Virus record (IMG/VR): IMGVR_UViG_3300001419_000004
Coordinates: 49,026 to 113,025 of that record
From: a virus
Strand: one strand, 5' to 3'
Length of the DNA stretch: 64,000 nucleotides
Numbering within the stretch: position 1 is the stretch's first letter; every line of letters begins with the position of its first letter. The position numbers were made by a program, and so were the translations under genes. The notes under the pieces were generated by a model, which worked only from the letters and a program-made list of their open reading frames with translations, did not search any database and had not been told where the DNA came from. This document shows, piece after piece, positions 13,598-60,952 of the stretch.

Positions 13598-16500
13598 CTA
13601 TCTCTCTACCAACACATCCCGAAATTCCATCACTACTTTATCACGTACCTCTTTGTCTATAATAGACTCAATAAGTACGTTTTCGCTATCCTTGCGTTTT
13701 AATCCGTCTAACTCATTATTATTTAACAAGTTAATATATGCTGACAAGCTTGGAGAATTTACTCGCTTATTGACACGAGATATAAATTCACGCAATAATT
13801 CATATTTATTCTGATTCGCTATTTCTATTAATATATTCTTATTGCGTTTATCTAGTCGCTCGCCCACCTCGCCTAACCCCGCCAAATCAGCCTCTGGTGG
13901 CTCCGCTGCAGCAGCTTCAGCTCCACCTTCGGCTTCTGCACCTTCTAACCCTTCTAGTCCGCCCTCACCTTCAAGACCTGGCAACTCTTCGCCACCACCG
14001 GGAAGGCCAAGGCCCCCGAGGCCGCCAAGGCCGCCACCCTCTTCTTCCGTCGGCAATTCAGTCTGTTTGGACATAATCTCAGATAACTCATCTATTTCGT
14101 CCGGGCTTAGGTCTGTAAACCGCGTCACAATCCATTCACGCGGGAACCAACCGAGGTCTTTAAGGTCAGACATAACAGCAGTGCGTCCTTGCCATGTTTC
14201 CATTCTATATAATTCATCAATTGCGCTGGTTGCACTCATACTGATTTCGAAATTCTTCAAATCATCAATCGAATATCCAGCCATGGCCAGATGACAAATT
14301 GCAACCTTGGTTAACCCAATAGAAATTTCGCGCTGCACCCACTGTACTGCTTTGGCGAATTGTGCATCGCTTGATGATAATGATTTCTCTTGTTCTTCCC
14401 CAGAGCCTTCACCGACACCCACACGTTTAAATGGGATTTTAGTCGGGGCAATCATCTTCTTTTTAAAATATTCAATATCAGCAATTTGGTCAAGATTCTC
14501 AGCACCCTTAAGAGTAGTAATATCTGGGCTGGTCCCGTCCGGTCTAACAGGAAGGAAGAAATCATCTTCTTGAATCAATGGGGAGAATCTTTCGTTGAAC
14601 TTCCCGGTTCTAGGGTCATAAAATCGTTGCTGCTTGAATGTTCGTGCGATGCTTTGCATAAACTCAGGGACATCTTTCGCTGCAATATTTCCAATTGGAA
14701 TCTTGAATATTCTTTTTTCTGGTGCTCTAGTAATCCTATAAATCAACGCAGCATCTTCCATTAAGCGCAACTGTTTAAATGCTTTCCTACCACCCTCCAT
14801 AATCGAATTATGTATAACTATGCCATCTGCGACAAAATTATGATATTCAGATTCAACCTGAATATCACCAACTTCTATTTCATCGCCTTCCTCTATTGAA
14901 ATTACTCTCTCAAATAACGCATTACCTTCAAAAGGCAATTCAGACTGATAATATGTTAATTGATGTCTTAACGCACCAAGTTCATCAGAATTAAATTTGT
15001 GATTATGCCCAGTACAAATATGCCCACACTTCACACCAATTTTATGCAGCAAAATTTTTAAACTAGTTATCAAGTTCATACTAGCAGTAACATGATGGAA
15101 TCTTAAATATTTTTCTCTATCTAAGTAGGCGCAACCATCAGAATCCAACAACCCTTGTACAAAATTAATAGCAATATCTTTACTAGAATTAAAAACCCAT
15201 TCTGGTATTTGTTTATGAGCAGCTTTCGCATTCAATCCCATGTCGAATAGCGTATCTGCTAAAACAGTATTATTCGCCATAACAGCTATGGGTTTGTTGT
15301 TTCTGTCATACCTAAAATTAATCTTAGATTCGCCAGAATATCTCGCCAGAATATTAATATAATATTCATTCAGTTTGTCATCCTCACCCAATGCAAACTG
15401 GACACAGGTCGACGATAGCCAACCGTCGCCAATCATAAATCCAAAAAATCTTGCAAATTCGTCGTCAACAAATTCTGGTAAACTACAATCTAATGATGTA
15501 CCCCAACCAGCACCAATTTTAGCATCATCCGCCAAACCATATAACTTAATAATCTTGTCAGCATTTTCCTTGGAGACTGCTGTATTTCTTCTTAAAAAGC
15601 CCCTCGTTATATTTCTACTAATTCCAGATAAGTTGGCACATTTCTTATATCCTATGCTATGTGATTCAATGATAGTACGATACTTCTCATTTAGCTTGTA
15701 TCTACGATACTGCCTTTTTATCGGGGTCGCCACATCATTAAATGCCAATTTAGGTATAACAAGCTCGTCACCAACTTTAAGATTTTTTGCAAGTACATAG
15801 TCCTGCACACCATCTTTATGCACCAGAACAGGATGTTCAGGTGTAATTACTTCTGAATAATGTCTAGTCTTAACTTTAATAGTCTTCTTGATACCATTAG
15901 AAACATATTTAACGACTTTAGTAGGCACAGCTTTTTTGCCATCCCAGGCGAATACATCGTCACCAGGTTTAAGGTCCTTCAGCCGTTTCCAGCCATTTGG
16001 CGTCCAAACCGGCGAATTAGAATCCTTACACCTCCCATATGGATGATATTGATTGCCATAATCAGTTAATCTTAAATGCATGGTTTGCCATGGATGCAGG
16101 AATTGTGGTTCTTCCATGACCTCATCTTGGTAAAAGAACCCAACCAAATCGCCATGCTTAGTTTCGACGCGTGTAAAATTATAGACATTTACAAATCGTA
16201 TAGATGCGACACCATCACGGTCTACTGTTGGTACGATTTCAAACGGCGCGTCGCCGTACTTACATAAATATCGCACCATCGGCCTTACATTGTTGTCAAT
16301 AAGCAATTGGTTGAAGAATAAATTCTCTAATTCTTCTTTAACGGTCTTACTTTGTGCTTTAATTATGATCGTATGCTTACGTTCTGGGTCAACAAGGCTC
16401 GATTCATCAGCATATAAGTCTAATGCTAATGACATCTCACCAGTTTCATCCATCTGGTCATAATCTTTATACCGTTCTAAACGGTTTATTTGTAAATTAG

Positions 16501-21725: not shown

Positions 21726-23914
21726 GATTCATCCTCTGACGCCACAGACCCCAATTTTTGGTGTTGGTCATTCATGGGCGAATCTGTAAATTCGCTGCCT
21801 CTTAATCTAATCATTTTCAAAAAATTAGTAACTTGTGCCCTAGATTGATCAGATAATTTTACCAACTTGCCTATAATGCCTTCATATGGCCTATCATCAG
21901 TCTTCATGATAAATTCCAAAGCATCAATAATATCCATATGGTTCTTATTATATTTGCATATCTCTTTGGCCTCAGATAGGAATCTTAAAAATGCTTCATC
22001 TGTTTTCGGTGCTCTTTTATTATCTAAATGGACTTTATATGCATCAGAATTTTTATGGTCGCGGCTTTCTTTTTTAATATATGCCAATATTACTGTCCGT
22101 GCAACCTGTGAATTATGTGATATAATTCCATTAGCAACATAAGAGTGATCGTCTGAATCAACTGATATTTCACATACTGGGCTTTCTGACTCATCAATGC
22201 TTATAACTGGGAGCCAAATAGTTTTTACACTATTACTATTATATTGATTAAGCCTAGATTTAATCAATTTTATGTCTGGATCATCAATATGATTGTCCCA
22301 ATTTTCCATTAATTCGCTGGCTTTATTTGCTTCACATTTAATCCTATCTTCGCGTATCGCTGTTCTTATTTTGTTATACCCCAATTTACCACAGCCATAT
22401 TTCTTATATAATCTTCTAAAACTCGAATTCAAACCATATATGAATTCTCTGCTAGGCGTTAATTGGTGCGACTTCGCTTGTTTATAGCTGACCTTAAACC
22501 CTATCGAACTATAAAATTTCATTGACGCAGACGTAGAACATATCAATTGATATGTTCTACGTCTATTAGAATCATACTGTCTGTTATTTTTTATGAATCG
22601 CGATATGCTGCGGTTATCAATCTGTATTTTTGTTAAAATTCCCAAATTAAGTAGAACCATTCGCAATTGTCTAATTAACATAATAGATGTACTTGTGTAC
22701 CCAACACACCCATTATGCTTCGATGAATGCCCATTACCATCAAACAACCCAGACAACATCGATATGATGTTGTCTTTAGACGCTATGAGCATTCTATGTG
22801 GAATTATTTTCTCACAAGCACTATCTCCTATTTGTAATAATTTTATAAATTCCACAAATCTTTTATTGTTACACACTATACATTGCCTATCTGGATAGTG
22901 TATAAATTTTAATCCAAGGTTATTATTGACTAAAGCATCTATAACATCACTATTTATATTATATATTGCTAATTGTCCATGTGAGCACGAACCTTCAGCA
23001 ATATATAATCCTATGATATATGCCAGTTCTGAGTTCATTACATTCGGCAATTGCCAATCTATTGATTTGACCCCACTACATCCAGCCCGATTTTCTGTTA
23101 GCTCTATATCTGATAAATTATTATCATCAACAAAAAATTGTTGGTTATACTGTATAGTTACCAAATCGCCAATAGATATCTTATTTGCTTGCTTCCAAGC
23201 ACCATCGCATAAAATAGAATGCTCAGGTGTACACCCTATTTCAAATCCGAGTTCAGTTTTTATGTCTAAAACACGTCTTGATGTCTTCGTCAAACCAGCT
23301 ACTACTTTACTAGGCTTACCACCTTCCCCTATTGTCCAAATTTCTTGTTTATCATCATACTTGTTTCTAGTAGAAACATTCTTAATATTATTAATACCAT
23401 TTGTCGTAAGAAGCAATGTATCAGGCCGCACACACCACATATTGAATATCTTAGAGCACCCACGATATATTACTCTACTTGGAATCTTTTTGCATGATGG
23501 GCATTTCAACCGCTTTTTTAGAACATCCTCAGGTGTTATGATATTGTATTCGGTTGGTTCTGGGTTGTGTATACATGATTCTGCAGGGCGAATTGGATTA
23601 TAGCAATTAGCACAATGAACCCTCGCTTTATATTTATATAATGTCCTCTCTATTTGAACCCAAGCCGTTTGATATAGGTCCATGAATGCCGATTCTTCCT
23701 GGCCTGGATAGATGCGATGTAGATTGTGTGCCCTTATAATCTGGCGTATCAATTCCTCAGTATTCTTCATGATATTGTCGCGCAGAGCCGCATCGGTGCA
23801 ACCAGTCCACCGATATCGCAACATTAAATCTTCGACCTTATTATTGTCGAAATATAATTTTCGGTCTGGCGACGTAGGGGTAGGAAATATAATAACTTCA
23901 GGAATTTTACTCAT
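21719..23914 (-). CDS. Late-transcription sigma factor (T4 gp55-like) with intein and zinc-ribbon insert
   Basis: A 731-residue precursor from MSKIPEV; exteins total 290 residues against 185 in T4 gp55. After splicing, sigma region 2 reads KIFNMW/SQVARTVILAYIKKESRD, matching the conserved gp55/sigma core-binding segment. Upstream is FMDLYQTAWVQIERTLYKYK, also gp55-like. Between these lies an inserted four-cysteine segment (CANC ... CPSC, about residues 101-141 of this start), a probable zinc ribbon absent from T4 gp55. gp55 directs host RNA polymerase to TATAAATA-type late promoters; the AAATATAAT motif found upstream of virion genes here fits. An intein occupies precursor residues 161-601. 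An alternative start 14 codons upstream exists. Confidence 0.85.
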   Translation of the reverse strand: MSKIPEVIIFPTPTSPDRKLYFDNNKVEDLMLRYRWTGCTDAALRDNIMKNTEELIRQIIRAHNLHRIYPGQEESAFMDLYQTAWVQIERTLYKYKARVHCANCYNPIRPAESCIHNPEPTEYNIITPEDVLKKRLKCPSCKKIPSRVIYRGCSKIFNMWCVRPDTLLLTTNGINNIKNVSTRNKYDDKQEIWTIGEGGKPSKVVAGLTKTSRRVLDIKTELGFEIGCTPEHSILCDGAWKQANKISIGDLVTIQYNQQFFVDDNNLSDIELTENRAGCSGVKSIDWQLPNVMNSELAYIIGLYIAEGSCSHGQLAIYNINSDVIDALVNNNLGLKFIHYPDRQCIVCNNKRFVEFIKLLQIGDSACEKIIPHRMLIASKDNIISMLSGLFDGNGHSSKHNGCVGYTSTSIMLIRQLRMVLLNLGILTKIQIDNRSISRFIKNNRQYDSNRRRTYQLICSTSASMKFYSSIGFKVSYKQAKSHQLTPSREFIYGLNSSFRRLYKKYGCGKLGYNKIRTAIREDRIKCEANKASELMENWDNHIDDPDIKLIKSRLNQYNSNSVKTIWLPVISIDESESPVCEISVDSDDHSYVANGIISHNSQVARTVILAYIKKESRDHKNSDAYKVHLDNKRAPKTDEAFLRFLSEAKEICKYNKNHMDIIDALEFIMKTDDRPYEGIIGKLVKLSDQSRAQVTNFLKMIRLRGSEFTDSPMNDQHQKLGSVASEDESW
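22112..23434 (-). mobile_element. Intein with LAGLIDADG endonuclease in the late sigma gene
   Basis: Encodes 441 residues. It starts with Cys (VRPDTLLLTTNGINNIKNV, block A), has IGCTPEHSILCD (block B), two LAGLIDADG-type helices (IIGLYIAEGS and MLSGLFDGNG), CEISVDSDDHSYVANG (block F) and IISHN (block G), with Ser as the +1 residue. In the second motif the terminal acidic position reads FDGNG, slightly degenerate. The insertion splits the most conserved sigma region 2 helix. Confidence 0.92.
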
Positions 23915-51950: not shown

Positions 51951-52706
51951 TTAGTACCTGTAAATTGCAGAAGCATATGGGTCATCTGAGAGCAGGATAG
52001 CATCCTGCATGACTTTATCACGCAACTCTTGCCCTTTCTGCTTGAGGTCACCGCCATCTAAGCTCAATGACCCACCATCTGGGCTAGGTATACCACTAAA
52101 CTTACCTCTAGCGCTCCCTAACATAATCATGCTTTCAGCCAATAGCATATCCATTGCCAGTAGCTTGTTGGCAGGGGTACGCCATGTGGAAATAGGTGGA
52201 ATGTACAAAACAGTAACAGGGAATGAACCTTTCGGCGTTGGATACAATCTTATTTTATTATCGCCCAAAACTTCCCAATGGCCCTCATTGCCCAATAACC
52301 GTTGACTGAACCTTCTATATGACTGCAACAGATGGTAATCAGTAAGAATTTGCTGTATGCCAGTAATATTTCCGATGTTCCCCGCAATATTGCTCGGTAT
52401 TCCAAGCCTGCGTCTTATCTTATCAAATTCAGAATTGTGCGGCGGAATTTTTCCGTACGACTGCAAGCAAGTCTGTTTCCATTCTTCATCATGGTCTGCG
52501 CCAGAAATAAAATGGGCCATCTCATCAGCAATTACATCTAGAAAGTCACCGTTGCAATAACGATATTGGGATAGATAAATTGTGCCTTCATCAATATCTG
52601 TAAACGCATTGACACTAGTGAGAGGCGACAGATTTATTTTTAGCCTTGGCTTTGAACTTGCATCGGTGAAATGGGCCAAGTTGGTCTGTGTATTTATAGT
52701 GGTCAT
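51951..52706 (-). CDS. Chimeric protein: SprT-like segment joined to the C-terminal half of a neck protein
   Basis: A 251-residue protein with GAGGT before the ATG. Residues 1 to about 95 resemble an SprT-like metallopeptidase (GTIYLSQYRYCNGDFLDVIA, then DEMAHFISGADHDEEWKQ); the usual HExxH reads DEMAH, so the first zinc ligand is changed. From about residue 107 (AGNIGNITGIQQILTDYHLL, later FSGIPSPDGGSLSLDGGDL) it is the C-terminal part of the neck protein whose N-terminal half is encoded at 53705-54421. The two halves are separated by a Hint domain and an endonuclease gene. Whether the halves are joined by trans-splicing or work as separate chains is not known. Confidence 0.75.
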   Translation of the reverse strand: MTTINTQTNLAHFTDASSKPRLKINLSPLTSVNAFTDIDEGTIYLSQYRYCNGDFLDVIADEMAHFISGADHDEEWKQTCLQSYGKIPPHNSEFDKIRRRLGIPSNIAGNIGNITGIQQILTDYHLLQSYRRFSQRLLGNEGHWEVLGDNKIRLYPTPKGSFPVTVLYIPPISTWRTPANKLLAMDMLLAESMIMLGSARGKFSGIPSPDGGSLSLDGGDLKQKGQELRDKVMQDAILLSDDPYASAIYRY

Positions 52707-53601
52707 GTTCTACCTCTTTTAATTCATTAATATCTTTGAGCCACAAAGTATAGCATGACCCCAATTTTAATGATTTTACATTTCTAAAACCAATTCTGTC
52801 ATAATTATACCCACCAATAAACAAATCATATCCTAACTTACGTTCATCATTGGTCAATCCTCTAAACTTTATGCCAGCTTTTTTTGCTGCATATGAGGCG
52901 TATAGCCGCTTCATATGTGGAACCATTTTATTGGCTGGTTTAACTTCAACCCATCGGTCGCCGCTTTTAGCTTGAATTGAAAAATCAACATAATACATTC
53001 TCATGCGTCTCTTTATTACATCCATATATGGGATTTTAATTAGTTCATAATCCCATGACTCAACATCTGGGTCGTTATCAAGCAATAATGCATAACATAG
53101 CTCATGCAATGACTTGAACAATACTAACTTTTCTGATTTAACTGGATGATATTCAAATCTTGACCGTCTTTTGTTTATCTTGGCTATATTTATCGGATTA
53201 TGCCCAGGATGAAGATACCCTGTCTTTTTCATATATCGCAACTGCATTGAAATTGAAGCATTTTTAGGGTCTTTTTTAAACCCAAATTCGCGCGTTCGAT
53301 TCCTAATAGTATTAAAATGGAATCCAGTTTCTTCCGCTATTGTCTTAGCATCCTTATTCTGAACAACATATTCTTGATATAAAAATTCCTTAGTTAATTT
53401 AGAAGTGTCTTTTAAAGATTTACGATGTGCATCTAAAGCCAATTGACTATGATTGTGAATTGAAGTGTCGACACCAACAAACTGCAATTTGCGTTTTATA
53501 GTTACTTTAGAGCAATTAAATTTAATTGCACATTGTTTTAAAGTATGATTTTTGAAATATTCTTTTAACTCATCTACTTGTATATCTATTTTATTGCTCA
53601 C
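52615..53601 (-). CDS. Free-standing homing endonuclease, PD-(D/E)XK type
   Basis: About 328 residues from a GTG at 53601 (VSNKIDIQVDEL); upstream in-frame ATGs would add a hydrophobic stretch that looks non-coding. Two or three helix-turn-helix units fill the N-terminal half (LKQCAIKFNCSKVTIKRKL; AKTIAEETGFHFNTIRNR). The nuclease part contains LHELCYALLLDNDPDVESWD, YELIKIPYM, MYYVDFSIQAKSG and WVEVKPANK, i.e. E...VDF...EVK, a PD-(D/E)XK arrangement of the TnsA type. It is inserted inside a split neck gene and overlaps the downstream fragment by 92 bases. A TATAAATA-like motif overlaps the GTG. Confidence 0.75.
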   Translation of the reverse strand: MSNKIDIQVDELKEYFKNHTLKQCAIKFNCSKVTIKRKLQFVGVDTSIHNHSQLALDAHRKSLKDTSKLTKEFLYQEYVVQNKDAKTIAEETGFHFNTIRNRTREFGFKKDPKNASISMQLRYMKKTGYLHPGHNPINIAKINKRRSRFEYHPVKSEKLVLFKSLHELCYALLLDNDPDVESWDYELIKIPYMDVIKRRMRMYYVDFSIQAKSGDRWVEVKPANKMVPHMKRLYASYAAKKAGIKFRGLTNDERKLGYDLFIGGYNYDRIGFRNVKSLKLGSCYTLWLKDINELKEVEHDHYKYTDQLGPFHRCKFKAKAKNKSVASH

Positions 53602-53704: not shown

Positions 53705-54421
53705 CTAACTCACCAATATAGGTTGTCCATCTACACTTGCCCAAAAACAATGTGCCCCAGGCACAATAATAGAGTTGGTAGGGCCATTCAATTCTTTAAC
53801 ACTAACAACTTTAGATGGTCCGTCGCTCGTCATTATATCGGAGCCAACAACACATTCATCAGCAGGCACCCATCCATCCATCATATCGTCTAAACTACTC
53901 GTCTTTAGTGGATGGTTTGGCGTGACTACAATTTTCCCATATTCATGTTCAATTTCTAGCAACTGCTGGTCTTTATCATGTTTTTCTATTTTAATCTTCT
54001 TGTCGCCAAATGGTGTTTTGGCCTTATAATCCTCTTGCCATTCATCAATAAGAATCATCTCACCATCTGACCGCAGAATTTTGGTGCCAGGACCAAAACA
54101 GAATAAAAAGCTCTCCGCACCGAATATTTGGTCAATCATTGTCGTTACTGGATCCCATGCCACCTCTTGAATCCAATATGCATTATTCGGTAAATCATAT
54201 GTGTTCTCTAGAGGCGTGGTGTAGAAAACAGCAAACATCTGCTCTTTTGAAAAGTAATGAGCTATGAAATTGCCAGTAGTACGTAGGACCGTTTCCCACT
54301 GGTCTTCTGTGATTTCTACCTCAACCACCGGGTGACCCAATTTAGATAATACGTATTTCTTCATTGGGTCGCTATCAACTTGCAAAATGTATGGTAAATC
54401 TGACGGACCTACTATCGCCAT
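53705..54421 (-). CDS. N-terminal half of a neck protein fused to a Hint (intein-like) domain
   Basis: A 238-residue protein. Residues 1-107 are the N-terminal part of a virion neck protein (LGHPVVEVEITEDQWETVL; AYWIQEVAWDPVTTMIDQIF; GAESFLF). From Cys108 a Hint domain begins: CFGPGTKILRSDG (block A), VVTPNHPLKT (block B), SIIVPGAHCFWASVDGQP (block F-like), then ILVS and an amber stop where the terminal His-Asn should be. The C-terminal neck half is encoded about 1.4 kb downstream at 51951-52706. This resembles a fractured gene with a split or decaying intein. Confidence 0.8.
   Translation of the reverse strand: MAIVGPSDLPYILQVDSDPMKKYVLSKLGHPVVEVEITEDQWETVLRTTGNFIAHYFSKEQMFAVFYTTPLENTYDLPNNAYWIQEVAWDPVTTMIDQIFGAESFLFCFGPGTKILRSDGEMILIDEWQEDYKAKTPFGDKKIKIEKHDKDQQLLEIEHEYGKIVVTPNHPLKTSSLDDMMDGWVPADECVVGSDIMTSDGPSKVVSVKELNGPTNSIIVPGAHCFWASVDGQPILVS
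53708..54100 (-). other. Hint domain lacking the C-terminal His-Asn
   Basis: Encodes residues 108-238 of the split neck protein. The nucleophilic N-terminal Cys, block B TxxH (TPNHP) and block F are present, but the chain stops (TAG, 53705-53707) directly after ILVS, without the Asn and the +1 nucleophile. It could cleave its N-terminal junction, or act as one part of a trans-splicing pair, or be inactive. Confidence 0.75.
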
Positions 54422-54520: not shown

Positions 54521-55984
54521 ATGATAAATCACAAAAATAAAGATGAGTTACAAACCGCATATTCAATAATGAGTATCAGAGACATAGCAAAGCGATGCTC
54601 AGTGTCTCCAGCTACAATCCGATATTATGTAAAGAAATTTGGCATTAAAACCAGAAGCATAAGTAAAGGAATGTTACTAAAATCCGACCATATATCGCAA
54701 CGTTCTAAAAACCACTGGTCGAATAAAGCCAATAGGACAAAACATTCAGAAATAATGAAAAGGATACAAAGCAACAGAAAGCAAAAATTATCAGAATCAG
54801 CTAAAAAGAATTGGGAAAAGAATCGTGATAGTATCATTGCTGGCATAAAAAAATCCACAACCGACGTAAAAAAGAAGAAGATATCTGAATCATTAAAGAA
54901 AAGTTGGACACCAGCACGTAAAAAATTGCAATCAGAACTGGCAGTGAAGTTGTGGAAAGATTCAGAATACTTTATTAAAACAACTCAAGGAATAAACCTA
55001 GCAACCAGTTCAGATGAATTCAAACAAAAAGTAAGTGCCAATTCAAAGAGGATGTGGAAGTCAAAACAATATAGACAAAAACAAGCTACAGCTATATCTA
55101 ACTTGTCACCTATATCCATATTAGATAACATAATTATTAATTCCCTGCAAAGCATGGGAATCGATGCACAACCAATAAGCCTAGGACCATGGTCATTTGA
55201 TGTCGGTTTTTCCTATAAAGATCGCAATATTTTAATCGAATGCCAAGGAGAATATTGGCATTCACGCCCATCTAGAATAACTAGAGACAAACAAAAGAAG
55301 ACATATTTCGACAAATATTTGTCTGATAAATGGGAATTATATTATATTTACGAACACCAGTTTTATGGCTTAAATAGTATTAGACATATCTTAAAGAATG
55401 TCCTACATCAAGAGGATATATCAAAACAATTTGACCTCAAACATGTTGAAGTTAAAATCATCCGTAAAAGCGTGATAAATGATTTCTTTAATCTATATCA
55501 TTACTTATCTAAAGGTAGAGCGGGGTTGGGTATTGGTGCATTTCTGGACAACAAATTAGTAGCGGCAATAAATTATACAGGCATCACAAGATTACAGACG
55601 GCCGCTAGATTGAATTTAGAACACAAAGAAATATTAGAGTTGCAACGGTTATGCATCCACCCTGAATATCATAAAAAGAATTTCGCATCGTGGTTTATAG
55701 CGAAATCTATGAAATTTATTCCAAAGCATATCAAAACATTAATAGCATTTTCAGACATAGGGGCTGGACACAGCGGCACCGTTTATAAAGCAGCTGGGTG
55801 GCAAGAAGACGGGAGGACAAAACCGTCTTACTGGTATATTGATTCTAATGGTACAAGATATTACAAAAAATCAGTATGGGATCAAGCTAAGCGGCTGAGA
55901 ATGAAAGAACAAGATTATGCAAATACAAACGGTCTGCATAAAATAAAGGGCCTAGAAGTCCTAAGGTTCATTAAACATCTTTAA
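54521..55984 (+). CDS. Vsr-type homing endonuclease fused to a Mom-like domain (copy 3)
   Basis: A 487-residue protein. N-terminal helix-turn-helix (SIRDIAKRCSVSPATIRYYV, about 17-36), then about five short W repeats (NHWSNKANRTK, NWEKNRD, SWTPARKK, LWKDSEYF, MWKSKQYRQK). The nuclease core (about 205-295) is the most diverged of the five: PWSFDVGFSYKDRNILIECQ, then GEYWHSRP and YYIYEHQF, still with the D, E and H-bearing motifs. The C-terminal domain (about 315-487) has YHYLSKGRAGLGIGAF, LQRLCIHPEYHKKNFASW, FSDIGAGHSGTVYKAAGW and KPSYWY. It is divergent from the neck operon and in the opposite orientation to the surrounding genes. Confidence 0.8.
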   Translation: MINHKNKDELQTAYSIMSIRDIAKRCSVSPATIRYYVKKFGIKTRSISKGMLLKSDHISQRSKNHWSNKANRTKHSEIMKRIQSNRKQKLSESAKKNWEKNRDSIIAGIKKSTTDVKKKKISESLKKSWTPARKKLQSELAVKLWKDSEYFIKTTQGINLATSSDEFKQKVSANSKRMWKSKQYRQKQATAISNLSPISILDNIIINSLQSMGIDAQPISLGPWSFDVGFSYKDRNILIECQGEYWHSRPSRITRDKQKKTYFDKYLSDKWELYYIYEHQFYGLNSIRHILKNVLHQEDISKQFDLKHVEVKIIRKSVINDFFNLYHYLSKGRAGLGIGAFLDNKLVAAINYTGITRLQTAARLNLEHKEILELQRLCIHPEYHKKNFASWFIAKSMKFIPKHIKTLIAFSDIGAGHSGTVYKAAGWQEDGRTKPSYWYIDSNGTRYYKKSVWDQAKRLRMKEQDYANTNGLHKIKGLEVLRFIKHL

Positions 55985-56030: not shown

Positions 56031-56252
56031 TTATTTCTCAGGTGTATTCCGGCGTGGGCATGTTGCTCTGCGTGCTGCCCGCTCTTGCTTCTTAGCAAGA
56101 GACTGTGCACGTCTGCCAGTACCTCGCCCCACACCACCGCCAGTGCCATCTTTCACGCCTTGGCCTCTACCGCCACCGAAGCCTCTACCCAAACCTAAAC
56201 CTCTCTTAAAGCCAAAACCTCTTCCAAAACCAAATGCTGGTAACGCCATCAT
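56031..56252 (-). CDS. Small Gly/Arg-rich basic protein
   Basis: A 73-residue protein; after MMALPA it is almost entirely Gly, Arg, Phe and Lys (GFGRGFGFKRGLGLGRGFGG) with a basic C-terminus (QERAARRATCPRR). AAGGA precedes the ATG, and it follows the 56254-56691 gene by one base. The composition suggests a disordered nucleic-acid-binding or capsid-internal protein. No family recognised. Confidence 0.6.
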   Translation of the reverse strand: MMALPAFGFGRGFGFKRGLGLGRGFGGGRGQGVKDGTGGGVGRGTGRRAQSLAKKQERAARRATCPRRNTPEK

Positions 56253-57302: not shown

Positions 57303-58847
57303 CTAATACAGTCGCAACCAATAAATATATCGATATTTTTCCTTGCCATAGATTTTTGATAACTCATTCTGGCATGCAAATTCAGATTCTTTCATATCTG
57401 ATTTAACAGCTTTATTATAAACAGTTTTCTTGTGCCAAACAAAACCATCAACATCAAGATACCAATAACTGGGGGGCACCACACCATTGAACTCCCAATT
57501 TCCGGCCTTGTATATGGTACCAACATGGTTGTGCGACAAATCTGCAAATGCAATTATAGCTTTTGCATTTTGAAAATCGTTGCGAATCTTTTTAATAAAT
57601 TTAGCAGTCAACCAGGTCGCAAAGTTCTTCTTCTGATAGCTTGGGTGAATACATAGTCTGGTATATTCTATTAATTCGTCATATTTTAATTCAAGTCTAT
57701 CTGCTGATTGTTTTCTAGTGATTGGACCAAACGACCCAACTGCAATCAATTCATCTCCAAGGAATGCACCATAATTTTTGGAATTTTTTCTGGCTGTGCC
57801 TATATAGTGATAGGCACCAAGCAGTTTAATAGCCTCAACATAGTTAATTTGACGTATATTTACCATATTAAATTGGAACTTAATAACATCTAGTTTATGC
57901 AATCCAACCCAATATCTAATTAATTGTTTCACTCTATCTATATTAGCGAAATCATGTTCCCATAAATATTTTAAGTCATAAGCATCATTCTGGTATTTAT
58001 AAATATAATTCGATTTTCTGCGGTCATTTGCCACTACTTCTGGCAGCGAATGCCAATAGTCACCATTACATTCAATTATAAGATTTTTAGCATCATGCTT
58101 CGGAATCACACAATCAAAATGCCAATACCCAATTACACATTGCACATCGTCTTCTTTATCATTATGTTCTCTATAGTATTCAATTCCCATCTCATCTAAT
58201 ATGCCATATAATTTTGTCTGCAATGAAGATACTTTCGGATATGCTGCCATTTTAGCGAGCATAAATTTGCGATATTCAGGGTCACACCATTTATCACGCA
58301 TCCTCTTTGATATCTTATTAGATTGCATCAGCATGGCTTCAGAGTTGGACCTCATTTCAAGGCCAAGCTCCGCCATCGTGTCATGCACAAAAGTAGTTGA
58401 CCAGCCAACACCCGATGCTATCTCCGATACAGATTTACTTTCATATTGTTCTATCAACCATTGCGAATTTGCCCATTCGCATAATGGTTTCTTACCATAT
58501 CCCAATCTTATCTGGGTAGCATTTTTATGGTCTCTACTTTTAATGCCATATTTTTTCATCCATTTATGGACTACTGATTGTGAAACCCCATAAATTTTAG
58601 ATATTTGGGATTGGCTTAATTGTTGAGTACAATATAGCTTCTCTAAATCTTTTCGGGTAGGCATAGGTGCAGATAACGATTCTGATGTACTTCTAGATTT
58701 AATCCCAAATTGTTTACATGCGAAAATCATAGCTCTTTTCGAAACCCCAACAATATTTGACATCTGCGAATATGATAATTTTTTATTATAATAATGGTCA
58801 TATAACCATTCAGAATTACGCCAAATTTTCCGCTCTAAATTAGCCAT
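57303..58847 (-). CDS. Vsr-type homing endonuclease fused to a Mom-like domain (copy 4)
   Basis: A 514-residue protein with three N-terminal helix-turn-helix units (LSYSQMSNIVGVSKRAMIFA; LSQSQISKIYGVSQSVVHKW; SVSEIASGVGWSTTFVHDTM). The nuclease core (about 205-300) has YREHNDKEDD, WHFDCVIPK, LIIECNGDYWH and YDLKYLWEHDF. The Mom-like domain (about 325-514) has YHYIGTARKNS, YGAFLGDELIAVGSFG, TRLCIHPSYQKKNFATW, FADLSHNHVGTIYKAGNW and PPSYWY. The C-terminal domain here reads most clearly as Mom-family. It lies between two small virion-like genes and is followed directly by a late promoter for the next gene. Confidence 0.83.
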   Translation of the reverse strand: MANLERKIWRNSEWLYDHYYNKKLSYSQMSNIVGVSKRAMIFACKQFGIKSRSTSESLSAPMPTRKDLEKLYCTQQLSQSQISKIYGVSQSVVHKWMKKYGIKSRDHKNATQIRLGYGKKPLCEWANSQWLIEQYESKSVSEIASGVGWSTTFVHDTMAELGLEMRSNSEAMLMQSNKISKRMRDKWCDPEYRKFMLAKMAAYPKVSSLQTKLYGILDEMGIEYYREHNDKEDDVQCVIGYWHFDCVIPKHDAKNLIIECNGDYWHSLPEVVANDRRKSNYIYKYQNDAYDLKYLWEHDFANIDRVKQLIRYWVGLHKLDVIKFQFNMVNIRQINYVEAIKLLGAYHYIGTARKNSKNYGAFLGDELIAVGSFGPITRKQSADRLELKYDELIEYTRLCIHPSYQKKNFATWLTAKFIKKIRNDFQNAKAIIAFADLSHNHVGTIYKAGNWEFNGVVPPSYWYLDVDGFVWHKKTVYNKAVKSDMKESEFACQNELSKIYGKEKYRYIYWLRLY

Positions 58848-59446: not shown

Positions 59447-60952
59447 ATGATATTGTGGGACAAAACCAAGAAAAAATATGGAATCACAAAGGAAACTGCA
59501 AAAAATAAAGACAGTGTTATTATTCAATGCTCTAAATGCAATAAAATTACACAACAGAATTATAAAGGATATAAATTGCTGCGCAAAAAGAACCCAATTT
59601 ATGTATGTAGGGCCTGTGTTAATAAAAGCGACAAATACAAAACAAAGCAATCTGACAACATGAAGAGGGTATGGCAGGACCAATCTTATAGGGCCAATAA
59701 AAAAGTGCCAAAAAATAAACAACCACACTCGCCTGCAACTAAAAAGAAAATAAGCGAAAAATCCAAAAAATTGTGGCAAGACCCAGAATTCGGACAAAAA
59801 ATAACCGAATCATTGCGGAAGTTATGGCTAGACCCAGAATTCAAACAAAAAATGGCCACAATTAATGCATCGCAAATAGAAAAGTTAAGGAGCATATCAA
59901 ACCATTTATGGAAGTCACCAGAACACAGAAGCAAGTATTACAAAGCTATAAGAAAACCAGGATTCATAGAGAAACAAATAAAGTCGCATAAAACAACTGA
60001 ATATTTAGAAAAACAAGCTATTAGGCTCGCCAATACACCAAAAGTATCCAATATTCAAAGTATGTTATATTCAATATTAGATGATTTAAACATAACATAC
60101 TTCAGAGAATATAATGACAAGCCTGATGACCCACAATGTAGAATAGGGCCATGGTCATTCGATTGTGTTATACCAAGACCCAATAGCAAAACATTACTAA
60201 TTGAATGCCAAGGCGATTATTGGCACAATAATACAAAGACGAAATTAAGAGACATCAGAAAGCAAGAATATGTGAAAAATTATTTGGCATCCGAATATGA
60301 GCTTAAATACTTATGGGAACACGAATTTTACCAACACAACAAGATTATTAATACTATAGAATATTGGCTCAATATAAGCAATACCAAACTTATAAGCTTT
60401 AGTTTCGATGATGTTGCAATACATAAATCAAAATCGAACGAATACACACCACTACTTGCAAAATACCACTATCTAGCGACCGCAGGACGTGGTGGAATCG
60501 CTTACGGGGCATATTTGGAGAACAAATTAATTGCTATATGCATTTTCTCGCCATTGGTTAGACAAAACATCCAAATCGCTAATTATAACAAGTCGTGCGT
60601 AAGAGAATTGTCAAGATTCTGCATACACCCCAAATACCAGAAGAAAAATTTTGGGTCATGGTTAATATCTAAATGCATAAACAAATTGCCCAAGAAATAC
60701 AAATGCATTATCGCATATACTGATACTACATTTAACCACACGGGGTCGTTGTATCTAGCATGCAACTTTAAACTAGATAAAACAATCCCGCCTAGCTATT
60801 GGTATGTCTCTCAAGATAAATGGGTCATGCATAAAAAAACTTTATATAATCGCGCTATTAAAATGGGGATGAAAGAATCAGAATTCGCCGAAAAATTCGG
60901 ATATACAAAAGTGCATGGGTCTCAAAAGAAACGATTTATCCTGCACTTATAA
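59447..60952 (+). CDS. Vsr-type homing endonuclease fused to a Mom-like domain (copy 5)
   Basis: A 501-residue protein. N-terminal zinc ribbon (CSKCNKITQQNYKGY ... YVCRACVNK, about 26-62) and W-D repeats (VWQDQSYRANK, LWQDPEFGQK, LWLDPEFKQK, LWKSPEHRSK). The nuclease core (about 205-305) has FREYNDKPDD, PWSFDCVIPR, LLIECQGDYWH and YELKYLWEHEF. The C-terminal domain (about 320-501) has YHYLATAGRGG, AYGAYLENKLIAICIF, RELSRFCIHPKYQKKNFGSW, YTDTTFNHTGSLYLACNF and PPSYWY. It is closest to copy 2 in layout and sequence. It is driven by one arm of the inverted promoter pair. Confidence 0.82.
   Translation: MILWDKTKKKYGITKETAKNKDSVIIQCSKCNKITQQNYKGYKLLRKKNPIYVCRACVNKSDKYKTKQSDNMKRVWQDQSYRANKKVPKNKQPHSPATKKKISEKSKKLWQDPEFGQKITESLRKLWLDPEFKQKMATINASQIEKLRSISNHLWKSPEHRSKYYKAIRKPGFIEKQIKSHKTTEYLEKQAIRLANTPKVSNIQSMLYSILDDLNITYFREYNDKPDDPQCRIGPWSFDCVIPRPNSKTLLIECQGDYWHNNTKTKLRDIRKQEYVKNYLASEYELKYLWEHEFYQHNKIINTIEYWLNISNTKLISFSFDDVAIHKSKSNEYTPLLAKYHYLATAGRGGIAYGAYLENKLIAICIFSPLVRQNIQIANYNKSCVRELSRFCIHPKYQKKNFGSWLISKCINKLPKKYKCIIAYTDTTFNHTGSLYLACNFKLDKTIPPSYWYVSQDKWVMHKKTLYNRAIKMGMKESEFAEKFGYTKVHGSQKKRFILHL

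Follow-up and report, generated by a model that had tools for sequence, protein, structure and literature searches.

Dassa et al. reportedly described in 2009 fractured phage genes that carry split inteins together with a free-standing homing endonuclease gene, and every known natural Hint-based rejoining of a broken gene product closes with Asn cyclization or a comparable intein-internal step. B-type BIL domains are defined by the intein motifs minus the C-terminal His-Asn (HN) and the +1 nucleophile (PMC7765530). An SprT or metallopeptidase domain joined with a phage intein is a combination of which we found no description in the open-licence literature. Here we analyzed 64,000 nucleotides of the virus record IMGVR_UViG_3300001419_000004 (referred to as the window), in which the gene of a neck protein is broken in two: a predicted Hint domain follows F107 and a predicted SprT-like domain precedes N108, both scarlessly, with an endonuclease gene between them. 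The best explanation, to which we assign a probability of about 0.5, is a bipartite homing protein-processing element residing at one site of the neck gene.

The break was located by comparison with the intact relatives L002, L003 and L004 (IMG/VR), whose 249-residue neck protein reads ...DQIFGAESFLF-NIGNITGIQQ.... In the window, the first open reading frame (ORF) encodes neck residues 1-107 and continues directly with CFGPGTKILRSDG..., while the third encodes a 109-residue SprT-like domain that runs directly into NIGNITGIQQ..., so that the split falls exactly between F107 and N108 and is scarless on both sides. The three minus-strand ORFs and the fractured neck gene proposed in the initial annotation were thus confirmed. 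The name "neck" is reasonable, given that intact relatives gave matches to the PHROG "head-tail adaptor Ad2" (8.7e-5 and 2.4e-4) and that the genes of a gp15-type tail sheath stabiliser and of the tail sheath follow shortly downstream. The beginning of the C-half gene lies within the 3' end of the endonuclease gene, in a different reading frame, and this overlap of 92-113 nt (92 nt in the window) is kept in three phages (window 52615-52706, L033:3683-3795 and L053:4040-4152). A second, intact neck gene, which had been named as a finding that would overturn the proposal, was found neither in the 341-kb contig containing the window nor in the other long split contigs; only two split records exceed 200 kb (341 and 257 kb), most records being fragments. 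The 341-kb contig was rejected as an independent copy, as it matches the window with 100% identity along the full 64 kb.

The same three parts were found at the same site in a phage from another sample set (L033), with 43% identity for the Hint domain, 56% for the nuclease encoded by the middle ORF and 53% for the SprT-like domain. A pattern scan of viral contigs for the C-extein start NIGNI[ST]G[IV]Q returned 75 neck loci, the majority of them intact (GAESFLF-NIGNISG) and eight with an SprT-like domain right before N108; among these eight, L058 encodes the cassette of L053 a second time, and L063 and L087 correspond to the window and to L033. Scanning bacterial and archaeal genome contigs added one further split neck (L145/L154), on a phage-like contig (G051) binned with a Lokiarchaeota metagenome-assembled genome (MAG), with its N-half on another contig of the same MAG (L155). 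In total, eight distinct C-halves, from eight sample sets, and six distinct N-halves were obtained, all at one site; the C-halves of L066 and L081 lie at contig ends, their N-halves being out of view. About 50 other distinct necks were intact and had neither a Hint nor an SprT-like domain. Chance or a local sequencing artefact, the latter having been raised as a possible refutation, was rejected given that the same architecture occurs in seven phages besides that of the window. On these alignments, the split site is shared by diverse, unrelated jumbo phages and marks a recurring family.

Profile searches of 50 records showed the SprT-like domain to be confined to the eight split records, and a full-length Hint match to the six records that cover an N-half (G001, G002, G009, G010, G045 and G046), all of which also have the SprT-like domain. 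The 42 intact-neck records gave no full-length Hint match and no SprT-like match, the remaining Hint matches in the 50 records were partial and to cis inteins, and no second Hint/SprT pair was found in another gene. Outside necks, one pattern scan found the SprT domain only as free-standing SprT-like genes. No cultured phage carrying this neck was found. The Lokiarchaeota-binned contig (L145/L154, L155) carries jumbo-phage neck and tail-type genes and most likely represents a phage binned in error or a virus not recognised as such.

The Hint domain of the window starts with Cys108 at position 54100 and matches NCBIfam intein_Nterm at 4.7e-6, above the cut-off. Its structural model gave Foldseek matches to BIL, gp41-1, VidaL and Hedgehog Hint structures (E ~3e-5 to 2e-3) and to Prp8, the best being BIL domains, with a probability of 1.00 to BIL and intein structures at a modest model confidence; profile and fold together place the domain in the Hint superfamily. 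In the model, the alignment with gp41-1 spans the entire fused split intein, and an alignment of the relatives and a RecA intein puts blocks A, B, F and G up to its His all on the N-half. Residue 1 is Cys in five of the six N-halves and Ser in L059, and block B reads T-[PI]-N-H in all six at 24-43% identity, so that every N-half has the Cys1 or Ser1 and the T-x-x-H that an N-S(O) acyl shift requires. The terminal Asn is replaced by a stop codon in 6/6, and five of the six end in ...[V/I/G]-His-stop, exactly at the place of the intein His-Asn.

The Hint domain without His-Asn that the initial annotation had noted on the N-half was recovered in this end (GQPILVS-stop in the window), and the description as a fractured gene with a Hint domain and a homing gene stood. 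A reading as a split intein did not: the N-half alone contains the full Hint fold, and a C-intein, a terminal Asn and a +1 nucleophile are all lacking. The fold is not divided, blocks F and G being missing from the C-fragment, where a profile search gave no Hint match, and the pair of a terminal Asn or Gln with Cys, Ser or Thr at +1 is absent. What was found corresponds instead to the definition of a B-type BIL or Hog-like Hint domain.

On the C-half, the window copy alone had no PF10263 match in a profile search, its assignment as SprT-like thus being below threshold. Comparing the profile of the family (alignment A11) with that of the SprT family by hhalign gave E = 3.4e-9 and a probability of 96%, upholding the proposed SprT-like piece at the intein C-half position. 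Four other members matched PF10263 at 6.6e-5, 0.011, 0.018 and 0.019, below the curated cut-off. A two-row alignment of the window and L033 compared weakly with SprT (P = 2e-5); unrelated alignments compared as controls scored 0.5 and 0.13. The phage SprT relatives were fetched with an Escherichia coli SprT query, which itself matched PF10263 at 2.4e-23, and the family alignment A9 is composed of fetched sequences only; the nearest relatives outside necks were the free-standing phage SprT-like proteins L150, L151 and L153.

Alignment of seven SprT-like members showed D57, E62, H65, H72, W76 and P104 to be invariant, and all eight retain the Glu, metal ligands two and three and the Trp that comes next. 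The canonical HExxH..H is present in four of the eight (L056, L059, L066 and L081). All eight C-halves have a P-x(0-2)-[IL]-[AG]-x boundary directly before the joint; the residue preceding the C-extein is Gly, Ala, Leu or Phe, and the +1 residue is Asn. The initial annotation had named the parts correctly and had missed the recurrence at one site, the HExxH members and the His-stop in 5/6 N-halves. Two candidates within the SprT part were discarded: the HN-S in PPHNSEF as a hidden intein end, since N and S are not kept in L033 (PPHSDLM) and the break is 18 residues further on, and tblastn matches to phage baseplate proteins and Phi92 gp146, which cover a short, chance-level stretch that is not SprT.

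The gene between the halves is a PD-(D/E)XK homing gene, as had been proposed. The kind of nuclease varies: five cassettes have a TnsA-like one, which in L059 is encoded on the opposite strand, G051 has a Mom-associated one, and L081 has a partial endonuclease gene resembling the Mom-associated kind. The constant core is therefore the Hint and SprT-like pair. When 57 necks were placed on a tree by their C-extein only, the split ones were scattered (8 changes, at least 6 of them forced by supported branches) and had intact near neighbours, for example L104 next to L059. Such scatter is typical of a homing element that is gained or lost repeatedly, and a free-standing nuclease lies within the insertion. 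The SprT-like domains fall into long (window/L033/L053), HExxH plus FGIP tail (L056/L059) and short (L066/L081) subtypes located in matching parts of the neck tree, from which long residence with loss probably also contributes.

Table 1. Coordinates of features in the window.
Feature	Position	Strand	Remarks
Three ORFs in a row	54421-53705, 53601-52615, 52706-51951	-	
Neck/head-tail adaptor N-extein, residues 1-107 (MAIVGPSD...FGAESFLF)	54101..54421	-	82-89% identity to residues 1-107 of intact L002-L004
Complete Hint domain after F107 (predicted)	53708..54100	-	Cys1, TPNH (block B), GAHCF (block F), GQPILVS then stop
Stop codon where an intein would have its terminal Asn	53705..53707	-	N-half of the window ends Ser-stop
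Free-standing TnsA-like PD-(D/E)XK homing endonuclease and helix-turn-helix (HTH) region	52615..53601	-	Pfam Tn7_TnsA-like_N 1.5e-7
SprT-like (zincin) domain heading the C-half (predicted)	52380..52706	-	DEMAH..H in place of HExxH..H; ends GIPSNIAG right before N108
Neck C-extein, residues 108-249 (NIGNITGIQQ...ASAIYRY)	51954..52379	-	82-89% identity to residues 108-249 of intact necks
HTH/nuclease gene with Mom/GNAT-like C-terminal part	54521-55984	+	Among head and tail genes; similar to the next two
HTH/nuclease gene with Mom/GNAT-like C-terminal part	57303-58847	-	Among head and tail genes
HTH/nuclease gene with Mom/GNAT-like C-terminal part	59447-60952	+	Among head and tail genes
Glycine-rich ORF	56031-56252	-	73 aa
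Sigma-factor-like protein with large cis intein (L137)	~23150-23308		Intein ends ISHN/S
Portal-like protein with large cis intein (L139)	~15758-15889		Intein ends IHN/S

The neck neighbourhood is dense in homing genes, given the HTH/nuclease genes scattered in the window (Table 1) and others nearby in relatives. A glycine-rich ORF with GFGRGFGFKRGLGLGRG repeats adjoins the neck region. Standard inteins of the same phages, in RecA, a sigma-like protein, the portal and a helicase-like protein, all end HN/S (the slash marks the junction). The RecA of the same phage has a cis mini-intein (MFG/CLHGDT...VIVHN/SPETT) with no obvious endonuclease (L017:13238-14926 of G001, outside the window). In the sigma-factor-like protein (a 745-aa frame), the region between the intein blocks looks endonuclease-like, and G009 has a homologous intein (L136). 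The portal-like gene of G002 (L138) has an intein at another site (LDLY/CLHGDT...VHN/SDEASL).

The bipartite element may be read as follows. Since the residues for that step are kept, the Hint domain should be able to form a (thio)ester at F107, Cys1 (or Ser1) converting the F107-Cys bond, and since the Asn is absent, it should be unable to carry out Asn cyclization. The side chain of the +1 residue, Asn108, has no thiol or hydroxyl to accept an acyl group. The SprT-like domain would cleave itself off at the boundary preceding N108 and bare the Asn108 amine. Less surely, the neck halves, held by their own fold, would then bring this amine to the thioester, and direct aminolysis would rebuild the F107-N108 bond, replacing both the Asn cyclization and the +1 nucleophile of an intein; the conserved terminal His would be in a good position to assist. 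The endonuclease would spread the cassette into intact neck genes. Cleavage by both domains we infer from their conserved catalytic residues and the established chemistry of Hint and SprT domains, and ligation of the halves is hypothesized. Self-cutting by the SprT-like domain followed by attack of the Asn108 amine on the thioester would be the simplest full mechanism. That the locus represents a new class of protein trans-splicing, in which Hint activates the N-half and a metalloprotease-like domain frees the C-half, we put forward tentatively, at somewhat less than even odds, and with the same reserve we suggest that peptide ligation in this class proceeds with neither Asn cyclization nor a +1 nucleophile.

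Several observations weigh against this interpretation. The Hint domain of the window ends in Ser and not in His, and the first zinc ligand is Asp (DExxH..H) in the window, L033, L053 and L154, so that these SprT-like domains, that of the window included, may be weak or inactive. The invariance of Asn108 is in part imposed by the search pattern. Structure models are of low confidence, with a mean predicted local distance difference test score (pLDDT) of 43 for the C-half and 51 for another, and at 43 the Foldseek result for the C-half, whose SprT-like part the initial annotation had proposed to model, is without meaning. The reaction itself is deduced from sequence. Direct attack of an extein alpha-amine on a Hint thioester makes chemical sense, but it is not the route that inteins are known to take.

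The main rival, which we regard as unlikely though far from negligible, is trimming without ligation: Hint would hydrolyse off the N-half, the SprT-like domain would cut itself off the C-half, and the fragments would assemble non-covalently. Each neck half has its own gene start, BIL-type Hint domains that have no +1 nucleophile give mainly cleaved products (PMC7664689), and a phage ribonucleotide reductase split by a homing endonuclease is cited in PMC10448857 as working as two peptides. The conserved terminal His, which suggests a role beyond N-terminal hydrolysis, and the cost of a nucleophilic (thio)ester exchange domain where hydrolysis would suffice both speak for more than trimming, although neither is decisive. 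It is less probable still, and in our view improbable, that the SprT-like domain is a remnant pairing with Hint or the endonuclease as a docking piece or decoy, with only Hint being processed or a phage or host protease cutting the domain. The Asp at the first ligand position in half of the members, the window among them, would fit such a remnant, but all eight have the Glu and the remaining two zinc ligands, four retain HExxH, and the best PF10263 match is at 6.6e-5.

An ordinary or decaying split intein that lost its C-half, with the SprT-like domain as a chance fusion and the neck non-functional or rescued, would account for the missing His-Asn and +1 nucleophile of the window, but we consider it very unlikely, as eight phages keep open frames and conserved catalytic residues at 24-53% domain identity and the split neck is the sole copy where long contigs permit the test. 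Least probable of all is excision of the whole insert by an RNA intron or other RNA-level joining, since, even though essential phage genes are often interrupted by introns with endonucleases (PMC10448857), the region gave no Rfam match at E values up to 1, each flanking domain is read in frame with its extein and is conserved at the protein level, and the start and stop codons of the halves are conserved.

In the proposed bipartite homing element, the C-terminal half of the intein machinery is absent throughout, its position being taken by a protease-like domain, within a structural gene presumed to be essential, as the initial annotation had also assumed in expecting the halves to work together; we likewise take it that they probably do. 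The shared cut residue, flanked by a Hint and a metalloprotease-like domain, points to a new means by which a virus could trim a protein made in pieces and perhaps reconnect it. Were the halves ligated, this would be a new splicing chemistry and a possible tool with no demand for Cys, Ser or Thr at the joint; if they are only trimmed, the locus would show how a homing element can keep a virion protein functional in two pieces.

Compared with known systems, the locus resembles the fractured genes of the Dassa type in that a conserved phage gene is in two parts, with a free-standing endonuclease between them, a Hint-type domain on the N-half and a scarless, conserved site. It differs from them in having the whole Hint on the N-half, an SprT-like domain rather than intein blocks F and G on the C-half, no terminal Asn, no Cys, Ser or Thr at +1, and an endonuclease that is TnsA-like or Mom-associated. 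With B-type BIL and Hedgehog Hog-Hint domains it shares the complete Hint fold, Cys1, TxxH and the lack of a terminal Asn and a +1 nucleophile, but unlike these, the neck element splits a presumably essential structural gene, rides a homing cassette and always pairs its Hint with an SprT-like domain on a second polypeptide. The core strands, the HExxH-type helix and the H-x3-W/F third ligand are those of SprT-like/Spartan metalloproteases (PF10263), whereas the neck domain is short, has no zinc ribbon, is fused in frame to a neck half and has its first His changed to Asp in half of the members. Finally, as in NrdA interrupted by a homing endonuclease, an essential phage gene is split by an endonuclease gene with its function presumably kept; unlike NrdA in pieces, both ends of the neck break bear processing domains that would restore clean termini.
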